A program made the position numbers and the translations under genes. From a virus, in IMG/VR virus record IMGVR_UViG_3300006617_000006, positions 1-28,444 of that record: DNA of 28,444 nt; one strand, 5' to 3'. This document shows, one piece after another, positions 1,337-27,046 of the stretch. Every line of letters begins with the position of its first letter. Position 1 is the first letter of the stretch. The notes under the pieces are model-generated. The model was not told the DNA's origin. It did no database searches and was given only the letters and a program-made list of their open reading frames with translations.

Positions 1337-4300
1337 TTAATTAATTTGTTTTTCAGCTTTATTTGCAGCTTTTTCCCAAGGCAAAGCTGGATGACCTTCA
1401 ATGTATAATTTACCTTTATAATTTATTTTTTTATTAGGTGTTCTTTTATATTTTTCATTGTTCCAGTAAATAAATTTTTTATCATAATCTAATTTACCGG
1501 ATCGCATGTCTTCCTGATGCTTTTGCTCATGAGCCATTACTTGTTTTCTTTTAGCGGGAGATAAGCCTTTTTTTATTTCAATAGAACCGTCACGATTAGC
1601 TCTTCCTAAAACTCCTTTAGGTAAAGCTTTAGGAATACCTGATCCAATACCTGTTAAAGATTTCTTTTTTCTTTTACTTCCGCCAATAGGTTTATATCGT
1701 TTTAATTTTTTAGGTTTTGAAATTTTAATTACTTTTTTCTTATCAACTTTTTTTGGATATTGCACCCCTACATTATAAGGTGACCAACCTAAAGCTAAAA
1801 ATATAGATTGCCATGTTTCAGTGCTGTCCATTGAAGCTGCTTTTAAGTTTTCTATTTTTTTAAAAACACGATCAACAGGCAAATTTGTTAATCCAGAAAC
1901 GTAATTAGCATAAGCAAAAGCTTGATAAAACGGGTCATTCTTATATTGCCTCCATGTTTCAAACTTTTGAGCTTCTACAATATCACCTATTTTTTTGCTA
2001 ATAGGAGGAGAAATTGAAAGTCCTTTTTGTATAAGCTTTAAAGAACCATCATATACTCTTTCCCCGGCTTGTCTTTTTTGATATTGATCGTAGTATTCCA
2101 TACTTAAATTTTTAAGCGAAGAAACTACGGCTCCAGCATATCCCATGCCTCTTAATATTCCGTCTAATACACCGTTTACTGCATAAGTTAATTTTTTGTT
2201 TCTTTTTTCTTCATCTTTATCATCATCATCACCCATGAATAAAGAAAACAAACCTTGCTGCAACGCTGTAAATATTAAATTTTGAGCAACACCATAATAA
2301 AGTATTTTTGAAGCATTTGTTCTCCAATCACCTCTTCTATTTATTAAATCAGAAGTTGCTTTTCTAGTTTCACGAGCATACTGTAAAGGTGTATTAGCAA
2401 AAGCTAATATAAGCCTACCTATGTCAGAAGCTTGTTGCCTAGAAACTTTATCAACTCTTGAAGATTGCTGAGATGTTTCTGTAACTTCTTGAAATTCTAG
2501 CATAGCTTGAGCGTCCGCCTCAGATTCAGAAAGACCTTCTTCAATTAATTGGTTGTATCTATTTCTATACCAAGAAGCTCCTCCAAAAGCAATAGCATTA
2601 CTATCGCCCCATTGAGTTGGCTTAAATCCTAATTCTAAAACTTTTTTATTTATTCTTTGAAATAAATTTCCAGGTGTTGAATCCGCTATATCAGATAAAT
2701 TAACTTCAATTGCCATGCCCCCTCTTCTTTCTTTTAAAAAATCAGAGTTTAATATCTTAATGTAATCTTTCATAAACTGAGGAACATTTGCCATAGCTAA
2801 CCCCATTTTAATAGGATTATTAAAATTCCAGTTTAAATAATTAACAATAGACATTTGCTGCAATAAAGCAGAACGCATGTTAATAGACATTACCGCACCA
2901 ACAGATTGATTAATCCAATTCATCGCTGCGTTAAATTCTTTATCTTTACCTTTTTTACGGTTCTGTCCAGTTTCCATTCTTTCAAGAACATTTTTAAGAG
3001 CATCCGTAAAATCATTTCCATAAACCTGTTTTATCAGCTTCATGTTTTGTTCAGAAAATATTTGATTTTTATTATTTATAAATTCTTGTAAAAAATCTTT
3101 TCTTTGAGCTCTATTAGAAACCATTGCCATATCAGATTCGATATTACCACCAAGCCATTGTTCTGAAATAGGTGGATAACCCGCGTCTAATTTTGTTATT
3201 TTAGAAAGTTCTTCAGCATATGCTTTTAATTCAGAGTTTCCTTCAACTAAACTTATTAAATCTTGAGCATCTGCTTTGTTTATTCCTAAGTCTTCACCCG
3301 CTTTATCGTATAAATAAGCCCTAACAGCTTGTTCATTAGTATATAAATTACTTAATACTTTTTTGTTAAGCAATTTTCTAAACTTAGAAGATATTCCTAG
3401 TGTTTTTGTATTATTAAATCTTTTATTTAATTCTTTAAAATCACTAGCTAATGTAACTTTAGCCGAGGTAAACGCAGCAATGCCTTTAGAAAAAGGAATT
3501 AATAAATTTTCTTGAAACCATTGCATTTGTTCCTCTCCTAATTTACCTTTAGCTTGAAAATATTGCAATAAACCAGCAAAATCATCTGCCCCGGGTGGAA
3601 CGTATATATTAATTTTACTTAAAAAACTAGATAATTTAGATCTTTTTTTATTTCTAATTATAGAATCCATTTCATCTTCAAGGCTTTTTTGATCAGTGTC
3701 TTTAGCTTGTTGCACTCTTTTTGTAACACCTAAGTTATCAAGCATAGAAGCCACAGCCTTAACATTTCCGGGAGCATCATCTGCAAAAAATACATCATTA
3801 TATCCTTCAGATACTTTTTCAGCAATCCAAAATGCTTTAGCACTAGGGTTGCCATCTGCTAAACCAGTAATATTTTGTATAGGAATGCTTATGCCTAGTG
3901 TTGATCTTAAAAACTCTTGTATAGCTGTTGCTGCTTCAGCAGGTCTAGCTGTTAAAACAAAAACGTCTCTATCACCTTTAGCCTCAGTAAATCGTTTTGC
4001 AAGTGTAGCTAGAGGTCCCTTACTACCGTTTTTTACTTGGTTAAATTCAGAATAATCAAAAGTTGCTCCGGCTTCCTGTAACTCACCATATTGCTGCGCA
4101 AACTGTGTAGCATCTAAACTTCCTGAAGAGCCGTCTGGAAGCGTGTATAGCACGTTAGATTTAGTCTTAGCTAAGGTGTCGTCAAAATCAAAAACTCTAG
4201 CTTTTTTAGTTGGCGCTTTTTTATTTGCCGCTAGCACTTTTGCTTTTCTTAGTGTATTTATTTTATCAACAATTTCTTCGGTTGTTAATCCCTCTGTTTC

Positions 4301-7300
4301 TATACCTAAGCCTTTTAATAAAGCTTCGTCGGTTTTTCTTGATTGTTCTTGTACTTGAGCAACGCCTTTTTCAGAAAGTATTGCTAATTTAACTTGCGCA
4401 GGATTTTTTTCACTACGTACTTCTCTAGTATATTTAGTTACAAATTCAGACCATTCTTTAGCGGACATGTAGTCTTTAACTTTTTTATAGCCATCAGCTA
4501 TTGCATCAGCTAAAGCTTTACCGCCTTGGTAAGCTAATTTAGTAGCTCTTAATCCGCCTATAATTATATTAATTGGCACAGCTCCTATATTAGTTTGTAA
4601 CGTACCTTCAGTACCAGTTAACTCTGTTAACTTAGCTATAGCTCTATCTATTAAGTTTTCTACTTGATTAGAATTATTTTCTATAAAAGCATCATTTGAA
4701 ACAGCTACCGCGTCTGGAGTGCTAACGCTTTTAACGTTATTTTCCTCAGCCATAGTTTTTCCTGTTTCAGGATTAATTAAACTATTTAAATCTATTCCAG
4801 CCTTTGCTAACCTGATTGATGGATTATCTATAATACTAAAGCCTTCAGGTAAAACAGAGTCTAGTTTAGCTATATCAATTAGCTCATCGTCTTTTTTTGA
4901 AAGCTGAGTTTGATAATAATTTTTCTTAATATAAGGCATTATTTCTGCAACCTTATTGTTTGAAATAGCCCAAATTAGCGTACCTCCTATTACCGATGCT
5001 GGCGGATTATGCTCCTCTCTAAACATTTCTCCAGATCTTTGCTTAGAGCTAACGCCATATTGCATTATTTTGGATTTATATTTAAATGGAGCTGCTATTT
5101 TTATTATACCGGTAGTAGCTTGATATCCTGATGATATAAATAAAGAAGCTAACTCTATAGGCATTGCATTTGTAGAAACTGCATCTGCTAATTTATTAGC
5201 TACAAATTCTAAAGCTTTTAAATTATTCTCACTTTGCTTTTTACCTTCTTTAGTAAAAGCATTTTTTACATTTACTCTTTTAGGCTTTTGAATATTATAA
5301 TTATTATCAAAAGTTTTAGCTAAATTTAAAGCTTCTATATAAGCAGGATCTTTAGTTCCATAATATAAACCACCTCTTGCGGGTAGATTAACATAAACAC
5401 CATTTACTTTCCTTCTAGCAAAATTTCCAAATTTAGAGCCTTCAAACATCCAGCTTGGTATTTGAGCACTTTCTATAGCGCTAAGCATTTGTTTTTGCTT
5501 TTCAATTCTATTAGAATCGTTAACAGTAGCTCTACCTATACCTAAAATATTTGTTACTTCATTTATTGATTTTGCAAAAGATATTTTTTTTAACTGATCA
5601 ATTAATTTTTTAGTAAAGCCCTTTGGTATATCTTCTATTTTATCTGCTGCTTGCTCAAAAACGTTTTTAGTTTGTTCTTCTTGTTGTTGCTCAGCAAACC
5701 TTTTTCTAAATTCAATATCATTTTCTAGTAAGTTTATAGCCTCGCGAGCGCCCATTGAAGTAACTAAAGCTTCAATAAGATTCATTTGTCTATCAGATCT
5801 AGCAGCTGGTTTTAAAGATTCATCTGTATAATAATTTAAAAATTTAGATAAAATATCATTACTAAATTTTACTTTTTGTAAATTACCATCACCATCTTTT
5901 TTCAGTAATCCGGCTTGTTCAAAAGGATTTGCACCTCCTTTAGCTCTCGCCATACGCATAGACTCAATAGAAAGAGCATTGTAAAAAGCTTCTGGGGCGT
6001 CTTCTATTGCTTTTGTTAAACCAGGATTTGTTTTTGTATTTTTAAGACCTTTTGAATCTTTAATTAATTTATACAAATCATCTTTAAAAGACTTAGCTAT
6101 ATCTGATTTAAATTTAATATCATCTATTTTTTTACTTGCTGTAGCTAATGCTTTTTTAGCAGCATTTTTTATAGTATTTAATAAATTTTCATCAATTTTT
6201 AAAGCTTCAGCTGTTTCTATATTCTTAATTTCAGGTGCAATTTCTGAATCTTCTTCAGCAATCATGCCTTGAACAGTAGAACTTTCTAAATCATTAGAAA
6301 ATCTTTGATTAGATATTCCTTGTAAAGCTCTTTTTCTTATAGCTCTTTTTGGTAAAAATGTTTGCAAATAAGCACCCAAAGGCGTAGATCCATCATAAGA
6401 CCTTAAAAGATCTAAAAATTCTGTTTTAACATTTTGTTCATAATCAGCTTTAGTAGCATCTGCAACTAGTAATCCTTTTGGTATTGCGTTATATACAGAA
6501 TTAGAAATTTTTTTAATAAAAGCTTCTTGTGTTTTTTCTAAAGCTTTATAAGCTTTATTTGATATAACATTTTTACCATCAGCATCTTTGGTTATAGTGC
6601 CATCAGCTACGCCGTCATCAAAAGCTTTTTGTAGTTCAACAGATAATTTTACACTACTAGAAGAAACAGATTCAAGTTTTTCATTTACATCTTCTATTAT
6701 TGTATCATTTTGTTGTTTTTTATTTTTATATAACTGAGTGTTATTAGCTCTTTCGTTGCTTAATTCTGTTTCACTTATTAAACCAGCATTAAACTTAGTT
6801 TGAAGTTCTTTATTTTTTCTTTTATATTCATCAAGAGCTATTCTATTGCTTGTTTTAGCCTCAGATTGAGATCTAGTTGCATCTAAAAACGTATCGTATG
6901 TTGTTTTAAAAGAAAGATCGTCTTCTCTTATATTTTCTTTTTTTACAGCGTTTTCTACAATAGTGTTTATTAAACCGTTATCTTTTTCTATAGAAGCATT
7001 AAGTCCAGCTACAGCTGTTTCATATTGTGTATTATCTATTATATCAAGATCTTTTTGAGCTTTTAAATCTTCTATTTTTTCTTGATTTTCTTGTATTCTA
7101 GCAGAAGCTTTAGCAACTGAATTTACTTCTTTATTATCTAATTTTTTTACTATATTATTACCATTAGACACAGCTTGTTTTATTTTTTGCTCCTCTATAG
7201 CTATAGCTGCATCAAGGCCTTCCGCAACGTCTTTGTTTTTTTCAGTTGCTTTTCTTTGCTTTAGTACACCTAATGTAAAAAAAGAATTAGCGTTTACACC

Positions 7301-8815
7301 TTCAACACCTGGAAATTTATTTCTAATAGCAGCAGCACTTTTTACTAAGCTAGAGCTTGCTCCTTGAAATATTCTTGTTCCAAAAGCAGCTTGAATTGCT
7401 ATTTCAGGAGCTTGTTGCCAAAATTCTCCTAACCCTCCATTACCATCATCAATAAACATTTTTTTAGCGCCCTCTTCAAAGCTTAAACCTTGAGCTGCAT
7501 ACTGATTAGATAATTCAGGTATTAATTGAGCTACCTCAGTTGCTGTTTCATTTATAGTTGCAGTAGAGTTAGATGTACCTTTTTTATTTTTAGATATTGC
7601 ATACATAGCTTTAGCCCAATCTTTCATACCTTTTTTGGACATGTTTTTTGCCATGCTAGAAGCTATACCTTTATACCCCAAATATTCTAACGAAGTGGCT
7701 ATCGTGCCTAATGCAATAGGAACACCAACTTCTTGTTGGTCTTCATCAATTAATTTAGTTATTCTTTCTTCTTCAGTGTCTAAATAGCTGTATTTGGTAT
7801 TAGCTTTTTCAATATTAAAATCTGTTACCATTGTAGGTATCATAAGATTAGCCATTGTAGCAACCCCTGCGGCTGGTCCTCCTACAGCAGTAGCTGCCAT
7901 AGTGGGTATTACAGAAGTAGCCACGCTGGTTACTGCAGTTCCCATTCCCCCTACTAAATCAACCATACTTGGACCCCCTGCTAAGCCAGTAGAGCCAGAG
8001 CCTAATATACCAGAACCCGTTGGATTCTTAGCCATCTCTTGATAGTTTTGTAAAATTGTATTATAATTTTCTTTAACTTGTTCATCTAAAAGGCTATCAG
8101 AATCTTTAGCTAATTTTTTTTGAAATTCTTTAGATTTTTCGTCTAATAAAATATTTGCACCAGAGCCTAAGCCTTGATTTAAAGCTCCTTGTTTAGCGGC
8201 AGCCTCTGCAAATTCAAAGAATAAATTTTTTGTAGAAGCCCATATATTTTCTTGTTGTTCTGGTACATTTTTAAAAACATTTTTTAAAACGTCTACAACT
8301 CCTAATCTTTTACCTGTTTCAGGATCTACTAATCTGTTTTGTTTTGGAAGCAGTTCAGTGTCTATTTTTCCTGTTTCAACGTATTTATTATAAGCTTCTT
8401 CCCCAAATCTTTTACCATATTCGGGACCTTTATCAAATTGAAATTTTATAGAATTTAAATCTTCTTTAGTATACTCTTCTCTTTTCTTTTGTAACTCTTG
8501 CTCTTTGCTGTATTTGTCAAATTCAGATTTAGTAACAGCTTTGCCATCTATACTATAAGGAGGCTCTATTGAATAACCTTCAATTATTTCAGGTTGTGAT
8601 TCCAAAGAACCACTTTCCAACTGCAAATCCGTAACGGGTTTTTGCCCCACTGCAGGTGCAGCTATTTCCGCAGCGGGTTGTGGCTTTTCCACAATTTGTG
8701 AATCAATTTTTTTAATACCAAATTGATTTATATATTGATCAAGTGACATTTTTTTATCTGCAGCAGCTTGTTGAACCTGCTCTAATGTAAATTGTTGTCC
8801 GTTATATTCAAACAT
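1337..8815 (-). CDS. Giant multidomain internal virion (ejection) protein with HAD-like and HEXXH metallopeptidase-like domains
   Basis: 2492 residues. The N terminus (YNGQQFTLEQVQQAAADKK) has the look of large phage structural proteins. A Gly/Ala-rich hydrophobic stretch lies at about 284-329, and a coiled-coil-rich region at about 530-720. A complete HAD-type motif set follows: DFDDT (D1543, D1545, T1547), LTAR (T1622), K1660 and FADDAP (D1679, D1680). About 1976-2347 is a conserved-looking region with the segment FANTPLQYAR; it resembles the 'large polyvalent protein-associated' class (LPD38-like, from memory). The last 70 residues hold HEQKH (H2429, E2430, H2433) with E2481 in PWEKAA as possible third zinc ligand. 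Known large podovirus internal proteins enter the cell with the DNA, and the position in the tail/ejection module fits this. The enzymatic activities are inferred from motifs. An alternative is a polyvalent protein acting after entry in the cytoplasm. Confidence 0.8.
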   Translation of the reverse strand: MFEYNGQQFTLEQVQQAAADKKMSLDQYINQFGIKKIDSQIVEKPQPAAEIAAPAVGQKPVTDLQLESGSLESQPEIIEGYSIEPPYSIDGKAVTKSEFDKYSKEQELQKKREEYTKEDLNSIKFQFDKGPEYGKRFGEEAYNKYVETGKIDTELLPKQNRLVDPETGKRLGVVDVLKNVFKNVPEQQENIWASTKNLFFEFAEAAAKQGALNQGLGSGANILLDEKSKEFQKKLAKDSDSLLDEQVKENYNTILQNYQEMAKNPTGSGILGSGSTGLAGGPSMVDLVGGMGTAVTSVATSVIPTMAATAVGGPAAGVATMANLMIPTMVTDFNIEKANTKYSYLDTEEERITKLIDEDQQEVGVPIALGTIATSLEYLGYKGIASSMAKNMSKKGMKDWAKAMYAISKNKKGTSNSTATINETATEVAQLIPELSNQYAAQGLSFEEGAKKMFIDDGNGGLGEFWQQAPEIAIQAAFGTRIFQGASSSLVKSAAAIRNKFPGVEGVNANSFFTLGVLKQRKATEKNKDVAEGLDAAIAIEEQKIKQAVSNGNNIVKKLDNKEVNSVAKASARIQENQEKIEDLKAQKDLDIIDNTQYETAVAGLNASIEKDNGLINTIVENAVKKENIREDDLSFKTTYDTFLDATRSQSEAKTSNRIALDEYKRKNKELQTKFNAGLISETELSNERANNTQLYKNKKQQNDTIIEDVNEKLESVSSSSVKLSVELQKAFDDGVADGTITKDADGKNVISNKAYKALEKTQEAFIKKISNSVYNAIPKGLLVADATKADYEQNVKTEFLDLLRSYDGSTPLGAYLQTFLPKRAIRKRALQGISNQRFSNDLESSTVQGMIAEEDSEIAPEIKNIETAEALKIDENLLNTIKNAAKKALATASKKIDDIKFKSDIAKSFKDDLYKLIKDSKGLKNTKTNPGLTKAIEDAPEAFYNALSIESMRMARAKGGANPFEQAGLLKKDGDGNLQKVKFSNDILSKFLNYYTDESLKPAARSDRQMNLIEALVTSMGAREAINLLENDIEFRKRFAEQQQEEQTKNVFEQAADKIEDIPKGFTKKLIDQLKKISFAKSINEVTNILGIGRATVNDSNRIEKQKQMLSAIESAQIPSWMFEGSKFGNFARRKVNGVYVNLPARGGLYYGTKDPAYIEALNLAKTFDNNYNIQKPKRVNVKNAFTKEGKKQSENNLKALEFVANKLADAVSTNAMPIELASLFISSGYQATTGIIKIAAPFKYKSKIMQYGVSSKQRSGEMFREEHNPPASVIGGTLIWAISNNKVAEIMPYIKKNYYQTQLSKKDDELIDIAKLDSVLPEGFSIIDNPSIRLAKAGIDLNSLINPETGKTMAEENNVKSVSTPDAVAVSNDAFIENNSNQVENLIDRAIAKLTELTGTEGTLQTNIGAVPINIIIGGLRATKLAYQGGKALADAIADGYKKVKDYMSAKEWSEFVTKYTREVRSEKNPAQVKLAILSEKGVAQVQEQSRKTDEALLKGLGIETEGLTTEEIVDKINTLRKAKVLAANKKAPTKKARVFDFDDTLAKTKSNVLYTLPDGSSGSLDATQFAQQYGELQEAGATFDYSEFNQVKNGSKGPLATLAKRFTEAKGDRDVFVLTARPAEAATAIQEFLRSTLGISIPIQNITGLADGNPSAKAFWIAEKVSEGYNDVFFADDAPGNVKAVASMLDNLGVTKRVQQAKDTDQKSLEDEMDSIIRNKKRSKLSSFLSKINIYVPPGADDFAGLLQYFQAKGKLGEEQMQWFQENLLIPFSKGIAAFTSAKVTLASDFKELNKRFNNTKTLGISSKFRKLLNKKVLSNLYTNEQAVRAYLYDKAGEDLGINKADAQDLISLVEGNSELKAYAEELSKITKLDAGYPPISEQWLGGNIESDMAMVSNRAQRKDFLQEFINNKNQIFSEQNMKLIKQVYGNDFTDALKNVLERMETGQNRKKGKDKEFNAAMNWINQSVGAVMSINMRSALLQQMSIVNYLNWNFNNPIKMGLAMANVPQFMKDYIKILNSDFLKERRGGMAIEVNLSDIADSTPGNLFQRINKKVLELGFKPTQWGDSNAIAFGGASWYRNRYNQLIEEGLSESEADAQAMLEFQEVTETSQQSSRVDKVSRQQASDIGRLILAFANTPLQYARETRKATSDLINRRGDWRTNASKILYYGVAQNLIFTALQQGLFSLFMGDDDDKDEEKRNKKLTYAVNGVLDGILRGMGYAGAVVSSLKNLSMEYYDQYQKRQAGERVYDGSLKLIQKGLSISPPISKKIGDIVEAQKFETWRQYKNDPFYQAFAYANYVSGLTNLPVDRVFKKIENLKAASMDSTETWQSIFLALGWSPYNVGVQYPKKVDKKKVIKISKPKKLKRYKPIGGSKRKKKSLTGIGSGIPKALPKGVLGRANRDGSIEIKKGLSPAKRKQVMAHEQKHQEDMRSGKLDYDKKFIYWNNEKYKRTPNKKINYKGKLYIEGHPALPWEKAANKAEKQIN

Positions 8816-12207: not shown

Positions 12208-15200
12208 TTATCCTGCTTGAGTAATAGTTATTGTTTTAGTTACATCTGGAGATGTAAGAACTCTAGTGTTTCTATTTGTAATATTTGCTACAACTGTTCT
12301 TGAAGATCCGGTTGAATTTGCAGATGCTCCAATAAAAAACGCGGTATTTGCGTCCACAACTGCAGTTCCGTTATTATTATTAAATTCAACCCAAGTGTTT
12401 CCTTGAGTAGGTTGAACTTGTATTTCTACATTCCAATTTCCCGGAATATTAACCGAATCACCATTTTGATTTAAAGAAATAGTTGATGGTATAGATCCTA
12501 ATGTAGCTGCAACAGCTCCTGATCCAGTAATTGTAGCAGTAGCAGTTGTATTTGATGTTATTACAGGCAATTGTATAGTTGCGGTTAGAACACCGTCCAT
12601 TGGATTAGACCCGCCGGTACCGGTTCCTAATTGTTTTGTTATACTTGAGCCAGCAACATCATATACAACATTAAAAGAACTAAGAGAAAAAACTTCATTA
12701 GTGCCTGCTGTAAAAACTATAGTAGCTAACCTTTCTGTAGCGTTATCAAAAGGAGATATATAATAAGGATTTCCTATTGTAGTATTAGCAGGTGTATTTA
12801 AAACGCCACCGCTACTTCCTGTTAATGCAGCCCAGGTCAATGTAGGTTTTAAAGTTGCTGACCCATTTATAGTTATAGTTCCCGCAGTTGCTTGCGTAGG
12901 CACTGTAACCGGCAATGTATAAACTACATTATCCCCATTTCGAGCATTTGTAAGTGTTCCTGGATTAGTTGAAGAAGGCATACCAGAAACATTAACTGTA
13001 ATATCACTAGGGTCTACGTAATAGTTTGTGAACGCAGCGGTAGAGAATACAACATTATTACTACCAGCATTGTTAAATATCTGTGACGCTGGTGTTATTG
13101 CAGAAAATGCAACTGTATCTATAGCATTTACTGTTAATAAAGCTACTGTAAACGCTAAGCCCGCACCATCTCCCGCTACATTTAATGTTTGTACTGAATT
13201 AGCACTCCCTACCGTGTGAGAAACAAAAAATACCAATTGATTATCATTAGTTATAGATTGTGGATTTGTAACAGATAACGTACTACCAGATCCGGGAGTT
13301 AAAGTTATATTATTAATATTATCAAATTTAAATTGAGAACTTAAAGGCTCAACAAATATAGCCCAAGTGATACCTTCGTTTTCTTTTGCTATGATAGTTC
13401 TTGCTCCATTAAATGTTGAATTTGGTGCGGAGCCAGAAAGCTGTAAAGTTGTATTATAACTTACTGCTAAAGTTGGTAAAGTTCCTGAATTACCTATATC
13501 TGTTTGAATATATTCTAATTCCCATCCTGCGTCGCCCTCGTAATTTATTGTATTAAACTGCTTTACTAATGATGGTGCATCATTAAATATAGGAATAACG
13601 TAAGATTCTTGAGTTCCAGAATTATAAAAATTATTATGAGTTACATTTTCACTATGATGCTGCCATAACTTACCTCCACTAAAAGTATAGAAAAAGTTAT
13701 TTAAAGAAATACCGCCTTCTTGTTTAAAACTTTTAAAGCTAACCCATCCGTTTGAACGGTCATTAAATGATAATGTTAAATATCCTGCATTAGAAGTTTC
13801 TGTATTTACATCTTCATTACTATCAAAACCTTTTCCAATTATTGTTAACTCATAAGATCTTGAATATTCATCATATGATCCTATTATTTTTTCAGATTGT
13901 TTTAATGCATCTTTAAAAAAATCACTCATACCAGATTGTGATATTTCAGTAATTCCATTTTGAGAAAGTCTTAATACAGTTCCTCTATTTTTATCTGTAA
14001 AATATTTTGCAAAACCAAAGCTAGCAAAAGATTGAGGATCTTGTGATATACCAAATTCTCCAGCATAAGCTGCTACAGTTCCTAAAAATTGAGTATTACT
14101 TGTAACTGGTACAGCTCCACCTTCTGCTGAATATATAAAATTTTTATTTACAGGTGATCTTGATACTTTATCTTCTTGAAATATTACAACTTGAGTATCG
14201 TCAACAAATAATTTTTGTACAGAGCCATCTAAAGGATCTAAAGATATAGTTAAGCCTCCTTCAGACTCATTAAATTGATTTATATAGTTAATACCAGTTC
14301 TAGAGTTTAAAAGTCCACTAGAATGTATTAAAGTGTTTTTTCTTCTTTCTTGTGTAAAATTTTCCTGCACAACAAAAGCTCTAACACCCACATCAAAAAA
14401 TGGTTCATTAAAGCCCGCTCTAATTCTATTTATTTCAATGTGATTGCCCGTTGTAAAAGTAAGCAATATACAATTAAAAAATTCTATATCAATTGCCGTT
14501 GCTGGAATAGTAGAAACTAAACCACCTGTTGAGGTTTCGTAAAATATATCTAGCTCAGAGCTTACGGGTTCTGTTTCAAAAACACAAAGCCCACTTGTTA
14601 CTGAAGTTCCAGAATTATCAATTGTTGTTACTAGTGCATCGCCAGAGGGGTTTGCAATAGATTGTACCTTAGTTAAATTAGCATATGGCTTTGTATACAC
14701 ATTGCCTCCTGACAAAAACTTGGGATACACCGAAACATCACATGGCGATATAGTTGCTGAAGTACTTGGAGGTATTGCTGCTGTTTGATCTCTAGGCACT
14801 TTATTTATGCTATCACCAAATCGATTAACAGTATTAGCAGAATCTATAGTAGAAATCCAGTTATAATATTCTTGTTCACGCTGTTTTACAACTACTCTGT
14901 ATGAGTAAGCCCACGAAGGTATCTGAGTTGTATCTGTAAATGTAATACGTAAAGCATTAAATGCTGTGGTATCATCTGCGTCCCCATTTCCGGGGTCTAT
15001 AAAAACAGAATCTGTTCCAGAACTAGATAATATTACAGGAGATTGTCTACCAAATTTATCTGCTAAAACAATGCCAACTTGATAAGTTCTTCTTGATTTA
15101 ACCGATTGATTTTGTAAAATATTATTCCTAGCTGAAGCTTCACCTGTTCTTGCAACACTAAATGCTATACTGGGTATATCAAAATTTTGTAAAAAATTAC

Positions 15201-16206
15201 CGTAAACCAATCTACCTCCTGCAACTTCTTGCGCTTTTGCTTTAATAGGCACCGCATCATAAACTCTAGTAAGTTGATCGCCTGGTAAAGTTCTAAACGG
15301 GTCAGTTGAAGAATATGTAAAGTTTACAAAAGGTTCAGTTGTAACTTCTTGATCGTCAACAACATACAAAGTACCTGATCCAGACTCTTTATATATTAAT
15401 TCAACGCTTGTAATACCATATCCAGTTGGTGTAGGTATTTGTAATTGCACTTGGTTTATTGCATTAACAAAAGTTTCTATTTCACCAAAATTTGATAATG
15501 AAGTACTTATTGTGTCAGTTTCATTTAGTCTAGAAAAAAGTATAGGACTAAATGGTGCTAAAACGCTGTACTCATTATCTTCAAATTGCCATCTATATGA
15601 AAACCTAATAAGTTTATCTTCCATAAATGTAGAAGAAATACTAGTTTCTTTTGTGGCTGAAACTAGCGTGGGCGATTCATAAGGAGAAAACTTAGCAACA
15701 GAAATTAAATTATCAATGTTTGCTGAAGATGTGTAATGTGAAGAGCTATTTCTTGCTGTTACTACATTTATTTTTCTAGGATAATTTCTATTATCTGTAA
15801 AAAATAATAAATCATCTACTATATTAACCCCTGTTATTGGATAGCTTTGATGAAAATTTAATTGAGTAGATCGTAATAAGTCATTTACCTGTTTTGTTTT
15901 TTGATCATATTCAAATATTCCATGCGACCCTGAATTTGTTTCATCATAAGAATTATTTGAAGTTACAAAAAAGTATATTTTTTCATTACCAGTATCGCTA
16001 ATTTGTCCAATACATACGCCATTTGTAATAAAAGATTCAGCAACCAATTCGTTGCCTAATAAATTTTCAATAGATCCAACATCAGAACTTTCAGACTGAC
16101 TAACAGTAACATTAAATCCTTCCCGGTATTCCCCAGGAGGTACTAATCTATCATCTAAATCTCGGTTCATTTTACCGACATTGAACGTTCTTTTAATTTC
16201 CGGCAT
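12208..16206 (-). CDS. Tail 'stabilization/muzzle'-type protein with C-terminal Ig-like and BACON-like domains
   Basis: 1332 residues. The N terminus RTFNVGKMNRDLDDRLVPPGEYREG, with GSIENLLGN after it, is a hallmark of the large podovirus tail protein often annotated as stabilization protein (called muzzle in crAss-like phages). The first 850 residues or so are beta-rich and likely form the tail nozzle below the connector rings. From about 900 on there are tandem beta-sandwich-like segments ending in phrases such as TITINGSATL and ATITGSG. The last 95 residues fit a BACON-like domain: SISLNQ-type start, W followed by alternating strands, R-V-V-A-N-I, ending TKTITITQAG. BACON domains are common in Bacteroidota and their phages and may bind glycans or mucin-like surfaces. 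The order after two ring proteins supports the role. The BACON assignment is less sure than the tail role. Confidence 0.8.
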   Translation of the reverse strand: MPEIKRTFNVGKMNRDLDDRLVPPGEYREGFNVTVSQSESSDVGSIENLLGNELVAESFITNGVCIGQISDTGNEKIYFFVTSNNSYDETNSGSHGIFEYDQKTKQVNDLLRSTQLNFHQSYPITGVNIVDDLLFFTDNRNYPRKINVVTARNSSSHYTSSANIDNLISVAKFSPYESPTLVSATKETSISSTFMEDKLIRFSYRWQFEDNEYSVLAPFSPILFSRLNETDTISTSLSNFGEIETFVNAINQVQLQIPTPTGYGITSVELIYKESGSGTLYVVDDQEVTTEPFVNFTYSSTDPFRTLPGDQLTRVYDAVPIKAKAQEVAGGRLVYGNFLQNFDIPSIAFSVARTGEASARNNILQNQSVKSRRTYQVGIVLADKFGRQSPVILSSSGTDSVFIDPGNGDADDTTAFNALRITFTDTTQIPSWAYSYRVVVKQREQEYYNWISTIDSANTVNRFGDSINKVPRDQTAAIPPSTSATISPCDVSVYPKFLSGGNVYTKPYANLTKVQSIANPSGDALVTTIDNSGTSVTSGLCVFETEPVSSELDIFYETSTGGLVSTIPATAIDIEFFNCILLTFTTGNHIEINRIRAGFNEPFFDVGVRAFVVQENFTQERRKNTLIHSSGLLNSRTGINYINQFNESEGGLTISLDPLDGSVQKLFVDDTQVVIFQEDKVSRSPVNKNFIYSAEGGAVPVTSNTQFLGTVAAYAGEFGISQDPQSFASFGFAKYFTDKNRGTVLRLSQNGITEISQSGMSDFFKDALKQSEKIIGSYDEYSRSYELTIIGKGFDSNEDVNTETSNAGYLTLSFNDRSNGWVSFKSFKQEGGISLNNFFYTFSGGKLWQHHSENVTHNNFYNSGTQESYVIPIFNDAPSLVKQFNTINYEGDAGWELEYIQTDIGNSGTLPTLAVSYNTTLQLSGSAPNSTFNGARTIIAKENEGITWAIFVEPLSSQFKFDNINNITLTPGSGSTLSVTNPQSITNDNQLVFFVSHTVGSANSVQTLNVAGDGAGLAFTVALLTVNAIDTVAFSAITPASQIFNNAGSNNVVFSTAAFTNYYVDPSDITVNVSGMPSSTNPGTLTNARNGDNVVYTLPVTVPTQATAGTITINGSATLKPTLTWAALTGSSGGVLNTPANTTIGNPYYISPFDNATERLATIVFTAGTNEVFSLSSFNVVYDVAGSSITKQLGTGTGGSNPMDGVLTATIQLPVITSNTTATATITGSGAVAATLGSIPSTISLNQNGDSVNIPGNWNVEIQVQPTQGNTWVEFNNNNGTAVVDANTAFFIGASANSTGSSRTVVANITNRNTRVLTSPDVTKTITITQAG

Positions 16207-18772: not shown

Positions 18773-20305
18773 CTATGCTTTAAATAATACAAAATTATTT
18801 GCAGCTTGAGTAATAAGACATCTTTCAGTAAGATAGTGCATTCTCATTTCGTCAATATCTGAACTAGTTGGTCCTCCAACAGATCCTGTAATCCAAGATT
18901 TCATTTTTCTGTTGTCAGTTTCAGAAGCTCTATATCGTACGTGTAAGAATGGACGCTTAATGTTTGTGCCTAATTGTTGGTCATAAACAGTAGAGGTACC
19001 TGCAGGTACTAATACACCTTCAATGTCCCCAAAACCTCCACGAGTTGACCAGTCATTTAAATATTTCCAGTCAGTTTTGTAAAAGTCATAAGAACCTCTT
19101 CGGTATCCAGTAAATCCTAAAGTAAGTGCCATATCTTCGCTATTGTTAAATACTCCGTAAGAAGTACCACCAGCGTAGCCACCATTTTGTTGTGCAAGAA
19201 TATCATCAATTTCTAATGATAGATCGCGATTTAAGAAAAGCATGTTTTCCTCAATTGCTCCTTGCTTGTCTAATTGCTTAAGAACAGCATCAAAGTCAGT
19301 AAGTGCTCCTCCACCTGCAGCTTGCGCTCCAAATCCTGAGTATACATTACCTCTTTCTTCAATTGCATCAAAGAAACCTTGAGTACCACGTGCATTTTGT
19401 GCAGCTAGGCTACCCCCGTAAGTTCCAAGAGCAATATTAGCTCCACCTGCACTTTTTTCAACACCTTCAACCATAGCCATTTCTACGTAGTCTTCCCAAC
19501 GTAGTCTATTTTCGTGCTCTGATTTTAGGTACCATAAGTATCCATCAGCTCCATTTTCTGAAGTCACTTCAATCCATCCAATCTGAGCTGTGTCAGATCC
19601 GTTAATTGAATAGTGCTCTTTCATGATAATTGGAGCATTTGTAAATGTAGCATAGCTAGGATCTAGCTTTTCAGTAAAGTTTCCAGTACCTTTAGCAAAT
19701 TCAGATCCGTATACCATTGCTGTTACTCTTTGTGCAGCAGTTACACCAGCGTGAGCTTTATAAGCTTTAATTTGAAAACGAGTATCTTCAACTAAAGTTA
19801 CAACTCCTTTGATTACAGCAGCGGTTCCACCTACGGCAGAAGTTGCATTTGACTGTACTTGAATCATAGCTGTTTGACCAACTTTGAAATTACAGTTTCC
19901 TGTAGTAGCTGATGTTAATCCAACGCTTGTTGGCTGTGCTGGAATAGTAAAGTTTAAACGTCCACCTGCGTTGGCATCAGCTGCAATTACAGCAGCAGCT
20001 CCAACAGCTGGTAACGCAGCAGCAGTTCCTTGAGGGAGTACATTTGCGTAACGGGTGTGTAAACGTCCTTGCTCAGTCCAAATAATTTGGTCTGAAGTTG
20101 AAGGCATCTCTGCAGATACCATTCTTAAAAATGATCCGATTGAACGATTTCCGTAGCGCTCTACTTCTTTTTCGTATACATCGGGTAAAAATTGTTGTGT
20201 CCATTGATCATGTGCCGCAGCAGTGAAGTCAATGTAGTTCCCAGAATAAAGTGTTTTAGACTGGGTTGGTTGTAATGCGGCAGGTATGCCACTAGTAAAA
20301 GCCAT
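18773..20305 (-). CDS. Major capsid protein
   Basis: 510 residues. It has no signal peptide and starts MAFTSGIPAALQPTQSKTLY. It is Ala/Gly/Thr-rich with the HK97-type layout: an N-terminal arm, a helical segment WTQQFLPDVYEKEVERYG, an Ala/Gly-rich insertion at about 90-200 that may be an added I-type domain, a long central helix near ENRLRWEDYVEMAMVEGVEK, then a C-terminal part ending in YLTERCLITQAANNFVLF. That ending is typical of large phage capsid proteins. Codon choice is more GC-rich and regular than in most neighbours (many GCT/GCA and AAC/TTC-type codons), as expected for the most highly translated gene. It lies directly after the scaffold gene, the usual order. The stop is TAG. The ATG at 20305 has no Shine-Dalgarno sequence but an A-rich leader. 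Confidence 0.88.
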   Translation of the reverse strand: MAFTSGIPAALQPTQSKTLYSGNYIDFTAAAHDQWTQQFLPDVYEKEVERYGNRSIGSFLRMVSAEMPSTSDQIIWTEQGRLHTRYANVLPQGTAAALPAVGAAAVIAADANAGGRLNFTIPAQPTSVGLTSATTGNCNFKVGQTAMIQVQSNATSAVGGTAAVIKGVVTLVEDTRFQIKAYKAHAGVTAAQRVTAMVYGSEFAKGTGNFTEKLDPSYATFTNAPIIMKEHYSINGSDTAQIGWIEVTSENGADGYLWYLKSEHENRLRWEDYVEMAMVEGVEKSAGGANIALGTYGGSLAAQNARGTQGFFDAIEERGNVYSGFGAQAAGGGALTDFDAVLKQLDKQGAIEENMLFLNRDLSLEIDDILAQQNGGYAGGTSYGVFNNSEDMALTLGFTGYRRGSYDFYKTDWKYLNDWSTRGGFGDIEGVLVPAGTSTVYDQQLGTNIKRPFLHVRYRASETDNRKMKSWITGSVGGPTSSDIDEMRMHYLTERCLITQAANNFVLFKA

Positions 20306-21587: not shown

Positions 21588-24008
21588 TTACCTAGGTTCG
21601 AATCTTGATAGATCAAAACCTCCTAAAACGTCATTACCTTTGGACTCGAAGGATTTTTGTGGTTTACCCGTATCAGGCGGTCCAGAAATTTTTGAAGCAC
21701 TAATTTTAGCATTAGCTACTTCTTTTTGCGTGCTAGTTTGTTTATCAACTAGTTCTTTTTGAGCTTCAAGTTCAAGCTGTTTTAATTGAACATTTAAATC
21801 AAACTCATATTGCATTAGCTCTCTTTTTGTTCTAGCCTCTACTTCCATCTTTTTAATTGAAAGTTCATTTTCAGCAGTTGAAACCTGTATTTTAGATTCT
21901 GTTTTAACCTGCTCCGCTTGAGCCTTAGCTTGTTCAACAACAACCTGTGCCTGCCCCTGAGCTTCTGCTTGTGCAGTGCTAGCTGCTTGAGCTTGTGCTT
22001 GGTCAACTTGTTGTTTTTTAATTCTTCTAAATTTTAAAAGTTGATTAGCTAATTTTGTATTGTTTATTTCTCTTATATCAATAGCATCTTCTAAAAATAT
22101 ACTTTTTTGTGCTAGAGCAGTTTGTATATTAGCTTCTAGCATTTGTTTTTCTTCTTGGTCAGGTTCTAACTCTAAAAATATTCCAAAATCATGCATATGT
22201 AAATCTTTAAGTTCCTCTAAAGATCCTACTGTAAACCTACCTAAAGCTGTTATAAACGCTTCTTTTGAAGGATGAAATTCTAAAACATCTTTAAATCTTA
22301 AAGATATAGCTTCAGCCAAACTGGTTGTTATAAACATGCTACTGGTAAGTATATGCCTTGTAGCTGTATTACTATTTGCCGCAGCTAATTTTTGAACCCC
22401 TACTAAAGCTTTAGGATCAGGATCTGAACCGTCTCTAGCTTCATTTAAACCAGTAACATCACGCATCATTTGCATGTACTGATTATATGCACCTATTAAT
22501 ACTTGTATTTGGTTTCCGCCCCCGCCAGGTAATTCTTGAATAGGCACCTTGCCTGGATTCATTTCACCATCTACAGTTTGTGAACGACCAATTATAGATC
22601 CAGTTTGGAAATACATGTTTAATGCTTCTTGTGGATTATAACTTGTGCCATTACCTAAATCTATTTCAGCTAAACCATCAGCATCTAAATAAACTCCTGA
22701 TGGTGTCATTCTTTGTATTGCTTGTTGTAATTTTAAATGTGTTAATTGCAACAAGTCCGCATAAGGCGTCATTTTACATACTAAAGAATCTATATTACCT
22801 TTATAAAGTCTGGGCGCACTAGCTATATAGTTCATCATTACCTTATTTGTATTAGATAATGGTCTGATCATATTAGTAGCCTTTTCCCATTTAAGTAATT
22901 CTTTTGTGCCTAATATAAAAGCGCCTTCATAAATTACTTCTCTTGCTTGTGCAACTTTTTGGAATCTAGTTCTTTTGTCTTTAGGTGGATTAAAACTATC
23001 ATCTTTTTCGATAGCTTTTTCAGCACCAGTTTGTGTTTCTTTTATTTTGTATACGTTGTTTTCCCATGTTTTCCAATTAAAGTATAATACTGTAACTACA
23101 TTGTTATTATCTATAATGTTGTCATCAGTATTTCCTATAGTATTGTAATCTACATAATTGGATCCTTTCTTCGTATACTCCGCCATTTTTTCGTCAGTTA
23201 GCGAAGGAAACTGCTTTTTTAATTCATTTAGCTTTATTTTTTTTACTTCACCAAAGTAATAACAATCTGAAAAATTAGGGTCTTCTGTATAAGACCAAAC
23301 TAAATTTGCAGGATCTACATAATCAAGCTTAATACCGTCAGTATTGTTGAAAGAATGTTTAGCGCATCCGATTCCTATAACAGCTAAATCATAATCAATT
23401 CTGCTTTTTATTTCATCGTATTTATTTGACAGAAAAACATTGTTTATGGCTTGCTCTTGAGCAATTTCAATGCCTTGCTTATAATTAAGCTGCATAAAAA
23501 GCTCAAGCTCTTCTGTGTTTGCTGGTAAATCTTCCTCTGGAACATTTCTAGCGTTAACACCTAATTCAGCTTCTATATCAGCTAATATTTTTTTAGCAGC
23601 TAAATCTCTTTGTATATTGTTTACAAACTTTGTTCTTTTACCTGTTGATATAGGATCTTGTGCAAAAGCTTTTATACTAAAAAGCCTATCTTGCATTCCA
23701 TTAACAACTATATCTACAAATTTAGGTACAATAGGTACTGGTTTCCAATCAAGATTTAAATAAGAAAGATCACCATTAATAGCAAATTCATCTTTATATT
23801 TTTTTATTGACTGCTCACCTCTAGCGTATAATCTTAGCCTATGATACTCATCACGCGTTTGATAATATCTTCCGGACCCGTTATCCTTGTTAAACCAGTC
23901 TTGCTCAATTGCTCTAGCTACAGATAAACCATAATCATTAGATTTTTTAACTGCATCTGAGACTGCTTGACTCGGAAACTGTGTTATTTGTCCTTTATTT
24001 TTTGCCAT
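21588..24008 (-). CDS. Portal protein
   Basis: 806 residues. The N-terminal half carries typical portal features: an Arg/Tyr-rich clip-wing region (YYQTRDEYHRLRLYARGEQS), then LDWKPVPIVPKFVDIVVNGM, a common 'pivot' phrase of large podovirus portals. A mixed core follows with AIQRMTPSGVYLD and MQMMRDVTGLNEARDGSDP (the stem/wing region). The C-terminal part, about 660-775, is an Ala/Gln/Glu-rich coiled coil (QAQAQAASTAQAEAQ), matching the barrel of P22-like portals. The portal forms the twelve-fold ring through which the terminase packs DNA. The gene follows terL with 2 bases between, in the universal order terL-portal-scaffold-capsid. Length and the long C-terminal barrel fit crAss-like and P22-like portals. 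Confidence 0.88.
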   Translation of the reverse strand: MAKNKGQITQFPSQAVSDAVKKSNDYGLSVARAIEQDWFNKDNGSGRYYQTRDEYHRLRLYARGEQSIKKYKDEFAINGDLSYLNLDWKPVPIVPKFVDIVVNGMQDRLFSIKAFAQDPISTGKRTKFVNNIQRDLAAKKILADIEAELGVNARNVPEEDLPANTEELELFMQLNYKQGIEIAQEQAINNVFLSNKYDEIKSRIDYDLAVIGIGCAKHSFNNTDGIKLDYVDPANLVWSYTEDPNFSDCYYFGEVKKIKLNELKKQFPSLTDEKMAEYTKKGSNYVDYNTIGNTDDNIIDNNNVVTVLYFNWKTWENNVYKIKETQTGAEKAIEKDDSFNPPKDKRTRFQKVAQAREVIYEGAFILGTKELLKWEKATNMIRPLSNTNKVMMNYIASAPRLYKGNIDSLVCKMTPYADLLQLTHLKLQQAIQRMTPSGVYLDADGLAEIDLGNGTSYNPQEALNMYFQTGSIIGRSQTVDGEMNPGKVPIQELPGGGGNQIQVLIGAYNQYMQMMRDVTGLNEARDGSDPDPKALVGVQKLAAANSNTATRHILTSSMFITTSLAEAISLRFKDVLEFHPSKEAFITALGRFTVGSLEELKDLHMHDFGIFLELEPDQEEKQMLEANIQTALAQKSIFLEDAIDIREINNTKLANQLLKFRRIKKQQVDQAQAQAASTAQAEAQGQAQVVVEQAKAQAEQVKTESKIQVSTAENELSIKKMEVEARTKRELMQYEFDLNVQLKQLELEAQKELVDKQTSTQKEVANAKISASKISGPPDTGKPQKSFESKGNDVLGGFDLSRFEPR

Positions 24009-24010
24009 AT

Positions 24011-26242
24011 TTACTTTATTATCTGACTTCTTAATCCTGAATTTGTATATTTAGATAATCCAAAATCAAGTTTTTTTATTTCTCTTGCGCTTGTTGGGCG
24101 ATATAAATGTTTTTGACAAGCCATTATTGCAAGCCCACTACTAATAGAAGCATCGTGCGCCGTTCTTTTTGATATATCAAATCTAGCCCAGTCTTCTAAT
24201 GTTCTTTGAAAATACATATTTCCATGCGATCCATCTAAATTTCCCACGTGAGATTCTATATAAGTTTCAATTGCCGCAGCATGCGCTTGCCTAATATCTT
24301 CTGAAGAGTTAGGAATTCCTCCCAACTCTAATTCTGTTTTAGATAATTTAATTTTTGTTTTATCAGGGCGGTTCATAGAAAAACCTCTATAACCTCTTCT
24401 TTTAAAATGATATAATAATCTAGGCTTATTGTTTTCTGCCAATATAGGCATTCCATAAAAAACACAAGCCATTAATACGTCTTCAAAAAATATTTCTGCG
24501 GTTTGTGGTCTTGCAATATATTCTAAAAAAAATTTACTATTTGGTACATCGCTTACCATGCTCCACGTTGTTAATCCGTGAAGAGCACCATTAGAGCCAC
24601 CACCACCAACAGTACCGCTAATATCATAACTATCGCAGCCGAAGGATCCAAGGCCATCATTACCTGGGTATTTAATTCCATTTTTTGTAATTATATTATT
24701 TTGTAAAGAAATAGGTGGTATCCAAGATAAATTAAATCTTCCTGTTTTATTAGGTGACCAAATAACCTTAGTGTCCTTTATACCGTTTTTCCAAGCAAAA
24801 GATCCTCTTGTAACATAACCTTTTAAGGCCATTTCTTCGTTATGATCTATTTGTTCGTATATTTTTGTTAAGTTAAATAATGAATTTACAGTTTCATCTC
24901 GAAATGCATGCTTTTCAGATCTAGGAAATTGTCTGTAGTATTCATTAAGAGCGTCACTATCATTTTTTAAACCTTCAACCTCGTTGTTCCAATGATCGAC
25001 GACTCCCCCAAAAATCTGTTCCCCATCAATTCCTTTAACCGGGTTTGATGGTGTTTCGAAGACAGGATAACCGAATTTATCAATGAATCCCTCGTATCCC
25101 CATTCCATAGGTATGAACAAAGAATATAATCCACTTGCAGTCTGGCCATTGCGATTTCGTTTTGTAACATCTGAATTATAATATAGTTTTTTAAAATTAT
25201 CTCCTCCTTTTGCTATTGCATTAGAAGTTGATCCCATCATACATTTACCAACTATTTTTGCTCCGAGCCTGAGACACGTTTTCGTAACTCTCCAGTTGTT
25301 GAGTATGTTGTCCGGCCTTTCCCATTTCCCCGATTCGTCGTGGACGAGTAGTTGTAGCTTCTCCCCATCGTACGAGTTGTCCCCCGTGTTCTTCCAATCG
25401 ATTGTTGTGTCGAGCCCCTTCCCAAATTCCTCCTGATTATAGGTCTCCTTAATGGCGTTCCTGGTAAGTCTTCTTGACGGTATCTTGTAGGATAACTCCG
25501 TCTTTGGTCTTTCCATACCGTCCTGTATGGGCTTGAAAAAGAATGGATAGTTGATCGATATGGGAACAATCTTATCTGTGAACATCTTCTTTGCATCTGC
25601 TCCAGTCTTAGATAATACCCCAAATCTAGAATCTTTGGATGTTGTTGCCAGGTTAACAGTCTCTGAGGATGCCATAAAGCTAAACCCAGACCTTCTGTTC
25701 TTAAGGTAGCACATGCCGTAAGATCTCTTATCTGCCTTGCAAGCCTCCCAGAAGTAATAAAAGATTCTGTTTGCTTGTCTAAAATCAGGTGATCCAACGT
25801 CAATTTTTGTCCAGTTGAGGTATATATAGTGCGATCCTGTAATGTAACAAGGCTCATTGTTGCACATGAACCAGTAACCATTAGAACGGCAATCAAACTC
25901 ATTTTCAATATACTCGTAGTATTGTTCTTTAATATCATCCGCATAATTTTTAAAATCAATTAAGTTTTTTATTTTACTAAGCGATGCAGGTTTAGATATT
26001 TGCTTAAATACTTGATCTTCTTTTTTAAGGTCTTCACCATTTATTTTATTTGGAGTTTTAGGTATTCCTACCTTTAGACCTTGAATTTCATATATATCAC
26101 CTAAAGTACCATCTTTACTTATAATAACGCAATCTAATTCTTCGTTATAACCGTAATTAAATTTTTTATATTTATTATTTTTCTTTATCTTTTTATCAGA
26201 TAAGTGATCTGTGTGTATTTTATATAAAGTTTGTTTGTACAT
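24011..26242 (-). CDS. terL: Terminase large subunit (packaging ATPase-nuclease)
   Basis: 743 residues. The N-terminal ATPase has a deviant P-loop, LKNRRSGFS (180-188), of the 'R/K-R-x-G-F-S' type used by many terminases. The Walker B is LQLLVHDES with D302 and E303, and a coupling motif GSTS lies at 337-340. The C-terminal RNase H-like nuclease shows FGCDSYD (D537, D540), FFEDVL (D588) and AHDAS (D697) as candidate metal ligands. The enzyme cuts concatemeric DNA and drives it through the portal. The gene starts on a TAATG overlap with the 81-residue gene and ends 2 bases before the portal ATG. Base composition is odd: about 25255-25910 (ATPase core) is 37-53% GC by line while the flanks are about 17-32%. 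The N-terminal 110 residues are extra compared with minimal terminases. Confidence 0.92.
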   Translation of the reverse strand: MYKQTLYKIHTDHLSDKKIKKNNKYKKFNYGYNEELDCVIISKDGTLGDIYEIQGLKVGIPKTPNKINGEDLKKEDQVFKQISKPASLSKIKNLIDFKNYADDIKEQYYEYIENEFDCRSNGYWFMCNNEPCYITGSHYIYLNWTKIDVGSPDFRQANRIFYYFWEACKADKRSYGMCYLKNRRSGFSFMASSETVNLATTSKDSRFGVLSKTGADAKKMFTDKIVPISINYPFFFKPIQDGMERPKTELSYKIPSRRLTRNAIKETYNQEEFGKGLDTTIDWKNTGDNSYDGEKLQLLVHDESGKWERPDNILNNWRVTKTCLRLGAKIVGKCMMGSTSNAIAKGGDNFKKLYYNSDVTKRNRNGQTASGLYSLFIPMEWGYEGFIDKFGYPVFETPSNPVKGIDGEQIFGGVVDHWNNEVEGLKNDSDALNEYYRQFPRSEKHAFRDETVNSLFNLTKIYEQIDHNEEMALKGYVTRGSFAWKNGIKDTKVIWSPNKTGRFNLSWIPPISLQNNIITKNGIKYPGNDGLGSFGCDSYDISGTVGGGGSNGALHGLTTWSMVSDVPNSKFFLEYIARPQTAEIFFEDVLMACVFYGMPILAENNKPRLLYHFKRRGYRGFSMNRPDKTKIKLSKTELELGGIPNSSEDIRQAHAAAIETYIESHVGNLDGSHGNMYFQRTLEDWARFDISKRTAHDASISSGLAIMACQKHLYRPTSAREIKKLDFGLSKYTNSGLRSQIIK
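25255..25910 (-). other. GC-elevated patch inside terL
   Basis: Hand counts per 60-base line are 30, 32 and 30 G/C for lines starting 25261, 25321 and 25381, and 22-28 for the lines to 25920. The line starting 25921 has 10 and that starting 26161 also 10; the line starting 25141 has 15. A lesser patch (24-25 per line) lies near 25021-25140. The region codes residues about 112-330, the ATPase core. It keeps the terminase frame intact. Confidence 0.8.
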
Positions 26243-26487
26243 TATTTAACTCTATTTTCAACACCCATAAAAGCTTCTGATTTTTTATTTTCTGGTTTTT
26301 TCTGCGTTAACTCTTCAATCTTTTCAATTATCTTTAAAGAGTCTTCTATTGCAACCCACTTTGCTTGTGCTGCTGTTTTTGCTTTTTCTGGATCTAATTC
26401 TTGAAGATCTATATTTTGTTTAATAACTTTTTCAAGTTCAATTAAAGCTTTTTCCGCTGCTTCAATTACTCGCTTTCTCCTGTCCAT
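26242..26487 (-). CDS. Terminase small-subunit candidate
   Basis: 81 residues, highly charged and predicted almost wholly helical (RRKRVIEAAEKALIELEKV, then DPEKAKTAAQAKWVAIEDSL). It has no recognised DNA-binding fold, but the basic N terminus MDRRKR could contact DNA. Placement immediately before terL, with a TAATG overlap, is where small terminases normally sit, and the size is within the range of small ones. Its ATG lies 26 bases inside the upstream gene, in another frame, so expression is probably coupled. An alternative is a small coiled-coil assembly factor. The call rests on position and helical content only. Confidence 0.5.
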   Translation of the reverse strand: MDRRKRVIEAAEKALIELEKVIKQNIDLQELDPEKAKTAAQAKWVAIEDSLKIIEKIEELTQKKPENKKSEAFMGVENRVK

Positions 26488-27046
26488 AGTTTATTGTAAC
26501 TTGATTAGATAAAATTCTATATAATTTTTTGCCTTCTATTTCAAACTCATATTCTGAGTCCGGTGTAAAACCAACCACGTCTCCAATAGACAAACCTGAG
26601 GAGCTTAATTCTTCGTTGCTATACACAAGCTCACCTTTTAATTTTTGTTCCGTTTCAGGAGCCCATACGTCTTTAATACCTATAGGGCTAACAAAGCAAT
26701 ATTCGTCCGGGCAATGCCACTCTCCGTTTCTTTTATAAGCAAATATTTGATCGGGCGCTACAAAGTATTCATTTTCTTTTAAAAAGCTTGCGCTATTTTT
26801 TTCTTCTCCCCTTATATCAATCCATCTTCTAAAAACATTATGATGTACAATTACAGTATCTCCCTTTTTAGGGGTTTTATAAGTTACTCCATATGCGGGT
26901 TCGTTAATTATAACACCAACCCTATTAACAAACACGTAGTCACGTTCACTAATTTCTGTGTTTAATATTAATTCATCCTGGCCAACATTTGTTTTATTGT
27001 TGTACCTTGATTCAGTAGATATAATATAATTGAATAAAGATTTCAT
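26462..27046 (-). CDS. GroES-like (co-chaperonin fold) protein candidate
   Basis: 194 residues. Two segments follow the GroES beta-barrel pattern. At 43-104 one sees GVIINEP, then KKGDTVIVHHN and ENEYFVAPDQIFAY. At 138-187 one sees KGELVYSNEEL, then SIGDVVGFTPDSEYEFEIEG, KLYRILSNQVTI. The element 'G-D-x-V... followed by Y/I-x-x... D/N-x-I/V' matches the end of GroES, where VGD...VLF and a final ILA-type strand occur. The two halves could be a duplication. Phages such as T4 (gp31) carry co-chaperonins needed to fold the capsid protein, so a place right before terminase and head genes makes sense. It ends in TGA, the only TGA stop here, and overlaps the next gene by 26 bases. Family assignment is motif-based and unverified. 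Confidence 0.5.
   Translation of the reverse strand: MKSLFNYIISTESRYNNKTNVGQDELILNTEISERDYVFVNRVGVIINEPAYGVTYKTPKKGDTVIVHHNVFRRWIDIRGEEKNSASFLKENEYFVAPDQIFAYKRNGEWHCPDEYCFVSPIGIKDVWAPETEQKLKGELVYSNEELSSSGLSIGDVVGFTPDSEYEFEIEGKKLYRILSNQVTINYGQEKASN

Follow-up and report, generated by a model that had tools for sequence, protein, structure and literature searches.

A giant virion-module protein of a marine phage joins an optional HAD phosphatase domain to a zincin that changes place among relatives

Zincin metallopeptidases are the commonest domain of phage polyvalent proteins (PMC5512222). In the same survey, the zincin-bearing DdrB of P1 is described as proteolytically cut before packaging, with its own zincin as the proposed agent, the N4 virion RNA polymerase, although it too has a zincin, enters the particle uncut, and an effector role is also proposed for zincins of this kind (PMC5512222). 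The words 'phosphatase' and 'polynucleotide kinase', as well as HAD phosphatase domains, are absent from the main text of that 2017 survey (PMC5512222), and HAD phosphatases are known from phage RNA repair (PMC7824862). Here we analysed a giant phage protein that carries both a HAD domain and a zincin.

The window analysed here is the whole 28.4-kb virus record (28,444 nucleotides), with its tailed-phage virion genes on the minus strand, where the terminase, portal and structural genes and the parts of the giant protein given below also lie. Matches to phrog profiles identified terminase, portal, capsid and tail-type structural genes: the terminase large subunit (24011..26242; phrog_6681), which places the phage, the portal protein (21588..24008; phrog_6547), a virion structural protein that is probably the major capsid protein by position (18773..20305; phrog_13704), and a large virion structural protein (12208..16206; phrog_14478, E = 8.5e-116). 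A GroES-like co-chaperonin (window 26462-27046; phrog_13932) was also found, and the isolates too have one adjoining the terminase. The small protein at 11521-11961 matches phrog_17252 and may represent a GNAT gene within the virion module, given that the annotation of its syntenic counterpart in the uncultured podovirus MW202828 names an acetyltransferase subunit. The terminase is nearest to that of MW202828 (63%), among those of Flavobacteriia podoviruses, and other near terminases belong to Flavobacterium phage elemo, Maribacter phage Panino, Cellulophaga phages phi38:1 and phi13:2, and Tenacibaculum phage Gundel_1. Terminase similarity thus assigns the phage to the podoviruses, with nearest named phages that infect Flavobacteriia; it is a marine phage, with Bacteroidetes as its probable host. 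The genome contigs L190-L197, which also hold relatives, belong to metagenome-assembled genomes with labels such as Aliivibrio, Alphaproteobacteria and Clostridiales; these are most likely phage contigs that were misbinned.

The gene of the giant protein (1337..8815), complete in the record, is the largest of the module and its last large gene, near the module's end. Genes in the same place in phi38:1, phi13:2, elemo and Gundel_1 are annotated as structural proteins, and the virion-module setting proposed in the initial annotation is thereby borne out. Gene order and homology indicate that the giant protein is probably packaged in the virion.

The reading frame is intact, with an ATG start and 2492 codons, and all eleven residues named in the initial annotation (D1543, D1545, T1547, T1622, K1660, D1679, D1680, H2429, E2430, H2433 and E2481) were found at their positions. 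The whole protein gave no match to Pfam (HMMER) or NCBIfam, and tblastn against named phages gave none either, whether queried with the full protein or with its HAD domain. Scans of viral contigs found more than 220 loci with the conserved core and more than 460 with the HAD domain, and the best 80 of each were taken, a sample biased towards window-like sequences. This core (residues 1725-2360; 1736..3643) is all-helical in the predicted structure and matches the C-terminus of Gundel_1 gp074 with an E of about 2e-8 for 50,000 sequences. Each module is under purifying selection when the window protein is paired with its closest relative, the 81%-identical L003, with dN/dS values of 0.076 for the HAD domain, 0.10 for the C-terminal zincin and 0.046, the lowest, for the core. 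One N-terminal packaging tag common to all giant proteins was considered and rejected, as the N-termini fall into several kinds.

Two further stretches lie upstream of the enzyme domains. The Gly/Ala stretch at residues 284-329 (7829..7966), which had been suggested to cross the membrane, does include the protein's two most hydrophobic windows and is its most hydrophobic part. The customary Kyte-Doolittle cut-off for a transmembrane helix is 1.6, and the peak mean of the stretch is 1.31 over 21 residues, so that a membrane-crossing role is weakly supported. The stretch aligns with a similar one in gp101 of Cellulophaga phage phi38:1, annotated as structural, with high compositional bias in the alignment. 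The second is an exchangeable cassette with an EEHxPxS motif (residues 1081-1375; 4691..5575), which occurs in two allelic versions: the window protein and L003 are about 25% identical there and 83-95% identical in other parts. The window's version is 64-67% identical to that of the distant relatives L005-L007, and the L003 version is shared with L004. This conflict with overall kinship is a sign of recombination within the gene.

Residues 1530-1724 (3644..4228) form the HAD domain. They match phrog_415 (polynucleotide kinase) at E = 1.5e-6 over profile positions 13-184 of 218, and the match recurs in all six relatives aligned with the window protein (7/7). Pfam searches with 50 HAD domains of the family returned DUF2608 for 42 (best 4e-6) and HAD for 24 (best 0.0028). 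Motif I is DFDDT at 1543-1547 (4175..4189), motif II is T1622-A-R1624 (3944..3952; invariant in 131/131), motif III is K1660 (3836..3838; 130/130) and motif IV is D1679-D1680 (3776..3781; 130/130). The composition of the protein predicts 0.8 chance occurrences of DxDx[TV], so that motif I by itself is no proof; conservation supplies it. Of 131 relatives, 123, which are all the ungapped ones, have the same seven motif residues (D, D, T, T, K, D, D), and a 102-row alignment shows no variation in them either. In the other eight the alignment has gaps: in six, motif I lies further upstream, beyond an insertion; one is truncated by the end of its contig; and the last, L040 (minus strand), is a partial reading frame that lacks motif I. 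Insertions of about 100-200 residues between motifs I and II, the usual cap position, were seen in L019, L053, L096, L040, L194 and L195, carriers that span several lineages, the window's clade included.

An AlphaFold2 model covering residues 1530-2360 (mean pLDDT 81) begins with an alpha/beta domain of alternating helices and strands, in which motifs I, II and IV sit at the ends of strands; a long stretch made up entirely of helices comes after it. Foldseek against the PDB, queried with this 831-residue two-part model, gave no E below 0.001; for the HAD part its top matches were Legionella Ceg4 and Lem4 (probability 0.98-1.00, E 0.08-0.24), and six of the seven best matches were HAD enzymes. 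A profile of the HAD domain found nothing meaningful among PDB sequences. Profile, motifs and model together establish a HAD fold of Rossmann type, and the intact motif set claimed earlier holds, both in the conservation of its residues and in the predicted structure.

The predicted substrate differs with the evidence consulted: the profile points to a polynucleotide kinase-phosphatase, and the structural matches point to protein tyrosine phosphatases, as which Ceg4 and Lem4 are described (PMC12313075). The giant protein contains no kinase P-loop (GxxxxGK[ST]). We lean, without strong conviction, towards nucleic-acid ends rather than phosphoproteins as the substrate suggested by the sequence. 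The Legionella matches are effectors, and they bear on the possible but doubtful alternative that both domains are injected effectors, the zincin cutting host proteins and the HAD domain dephosphorylating host proteins or signals; similarity of the HAD core fold, however, sets no substrate.

The C-terminal domain (residues 2385-2492; 1340..1663) contains the zinc motif HEQKH at 2429-2433 (1517..1531) and E2481 (1373..1375), the predicted third zinc ligand, in a PWE motif 48 residues past the last His of HEQKH. H2429, E2430, H2433 and E2481 are invariant in all 18 C-terminal domains collected, five of which come from small proteins or fragments that lack the core. Phrog_87 (metallo-protease) is matched by 11 of the 18 and phrog_16532 by 16. 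In a model with mean pLDDT 85, HEXXH lies in the helix at model residues 36-55 and E2481 in the last helix (95-107), with a strand insert between them, so that the two helices are brought together as in a zincin fold. Foldseek retrieved several SprT-like phage proteins (E from 2e-4 to 4e-3, query TM-scores 0.53-0.64) and one uncultured-virus protein at 6e-8; neither profile search nor Foldseek gave a significant match to a solved structure in the PDB. A chance HEXXH is expected 0.0005 times from the composition of the window protein, and this explanation was ruled out by the family counts given below together with the 18/18 invariance. The domain is a reduced SprT-like zincin with a predicted zinc site, by sequence and model, and the C-terminal peptidase motif of the initial annotation stands, with its glutamate.

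Zincins proved to be a near-universal part of this family. Among 127 complete giant proteins, HEXXH occurs once internally, in the N-terminal half, in 111, only at the C-terminus in eight, at both places in four and in degenerate form in four; composition predicts 0.49 such motifs across all 127 proteins combined. In the internal domain a Glu lies 56 residues past the last His of HEXXH and is at least 90% conserved, and HEXXH itself is invariant in the alignment, whose sequences were chosen by that motif. Weak M78-like Pfam matches were obtained, and the internal domains differ strongly from one another, with a mean column identity of 20%. These sequence features mark the internal domain, too, as a zincin. 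The eight C-terminal-only proteins, which make up the window's clade, show no trace of it. On the core tree these eight form one clade and the four proteins with both zincins another, each with full support, which means at least two separate fusions of the C-terminal domain; a single lineage of C-terminal-only and both-zincin proteins, with stepwise replacement, was rejected on the same split. In the window's clade the usual zincin was thus swapped, in a single event, for an unrelated one. The pattern is observed; functional equivalence of the two zincins would follow from it only by extension.

Near-universal presence also bears on what the zincin does. Nearly all relatives keep one whatever else they carry, which fits a common step such as cutting of the giant protein, and a shared housekeeping task of this kind accounts for the pattern better than attack on host proteins by injected enzymes does. 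The effector alternative draws on the role already proposed for polyvalent-protein zincins and on the divergence of the internal domains, as might suit host-facing enzymes. Given the near-universal zincin, its swap in the window's clade and the precedent of P1 DdrB, self-processing is no less likely than an attack on host molecules. The uncut N4 polymerase shows that self-processing is not general among zincin-bearing proteins.

In the four degenerate relatives (L006, L007, L037 and L105), EELFH replaces HExxH, the first His being changed to Glu, and the rest of the domain still fits the zincin profile. We looked for an independent small zincin gene in these four and found none in the DNA examined, which suggests that zincin activity is not absolutely required. 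The substitution EExxH for HExxH is what might be expected if the domains were folded but non-catalytic scaffolds, an explanation that we regard as very improbable, since the catalytic residues are invariant in 123/123 ungapped HAD domains and in 18/18 C-terminal domains and dN/dS is low.

The C-terminal type of zincin also exists on its own. In L063, L171 and L173 a stand-alone gene follows the giant gene, about 1.8-2.5 kb further downstream, and in L186 (462-7224) another is found within a run of small proteins starting with MAFKMKG or a similar sequence. The downstream small gene, the position of the giant gene among head and tail genes and the structural annotation of its counterparts would suit a protein that serves assembly only: a structural component inside the particle, with enzymes that act on other virion proteins by trimming or regulating them and that never reach the host. 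We consider this unlikely, because a phosphatase has no obvious role in assembly and the HAD domain is missing from many relatives.

The HAD domain is a separate optional module that comes and goes among relatives. Its state changes about nine times on the core tree, by gains or losses, and HAD-less relatives have about 250 residues fewer between zincin and core, with the core boundary intact. Such behaviour fits a cargo adapted to particular hosts. The initial annotation had proposed that a phosphatase plus a zinc peptidase attack the host at infection; both domains are indeed present in one protein, but with the HAD domain optional they are not one conserved two-part weapon, and the balance for the peptidase has moved towards self-processing.

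We therefore favour, at a probability of about 0.55, a polyvalent-type giant virion protein whose zincin cuts the protein itself and whose optional HAD domain is a cargo phosphatase acting early in the host. The long N-terminal region and the conserved helical core would be built into or packaged with the particle, as gene order and homology suggest. The zincin would most likely cut the giant protein itself, on packaging or entry, and release parts of it; in the window's clade this task would have passed from the usual internal zincin, now lost, to the unrelated C-terminal one. The HAD domain, where present, would go to work early in a new host; phosphorylated nucleic-acid ends are its most plausible target, and phosphoproteins or nucleotides are less sure ones. 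A more speculative version, which we hold to be quite unlikely, adds that the zincin is needed for cargo release, that the clade's own was recruited from a small phage gene of the downstream type, and that the HAD domain, once delivered, works as a 3'-end phosphatase which, as infection begins, mends host or phage RNA that defence nucleases have cut.

These results would bring a large and almost unannotated group of marine phages within the polyvalent-protein idea and add to its cargo modules a HAD phosphatase, which the 2017 survey leaves unmentioned in its main text. A near-universal zincin that switches position makes it testable whether the zincins of giant virion proteins cut the proteins that carry them or the host, and culturable relatives exist in Tenacibaculum phage Gundel_1, Flavobacterium phage elemo and Cellulophaga phage phi38:1.

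Compared with known systems, the window protein has its nearest isolate counterparts in phi38:1 gp101, phi13:2 gp127, elemo gp18 and Gundel_1 gp074, giant structural proteins at the same place in the gene order, except that in Gundel_1 the giant gene lies upstream of the terminase instead. Some giants of Flavobacteriia podoviruses resemble the window protein in core or N-terminal sequence, but its HAD domain is absent from all six isolate giants examined, which carry other modules, e.g. GNAT and DUF3293. HEXXH was seen at residue 1337 of Gundel_1 gp074 and residue 1543 of elemo gp18, and twice, at residues 1615 and 2500, in the giant protein of MW202828 (L012 741-12320). The HAD domain resembles polynucleotide-kinase-type HADs of phrog_415 in its near full-length profile match and in DxDxT, T-x-R, K and DD; it differs in the lack of a kinase domain or P-loop in the window protein, in an insert between motifs I and II and in its best structural matches, which are other HAD enzymes. 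The C-terminal domain shares the HEXXH helix, the small strand insert and the last-helix Glu ligand with the SprT-like, phrog_87 and phrog_16532 phage metalloproteases, and is unlike them in being fused to a giant virion protein. No LPD, MPTase-PolyVal or ART Pfam model matches the window protein (HMMER), in which it is unlike polyvalent proteins; without these catalogued domains, and with delivery presumed, it is to be taken as a variant of polyvalent proteins rather than as a proven member. Polyvalent proteins (Iyer et al. 2017, PMC5512222), with P1 DdrB and the N4 virion RNA polymerase among them, are nevertheless the closest known kind, and the window protein has in common with them a very long multidomain chain, a place in the virion gene module, at least two unrelated enzyme domains, a zincin and a domain order that varies among relatives.
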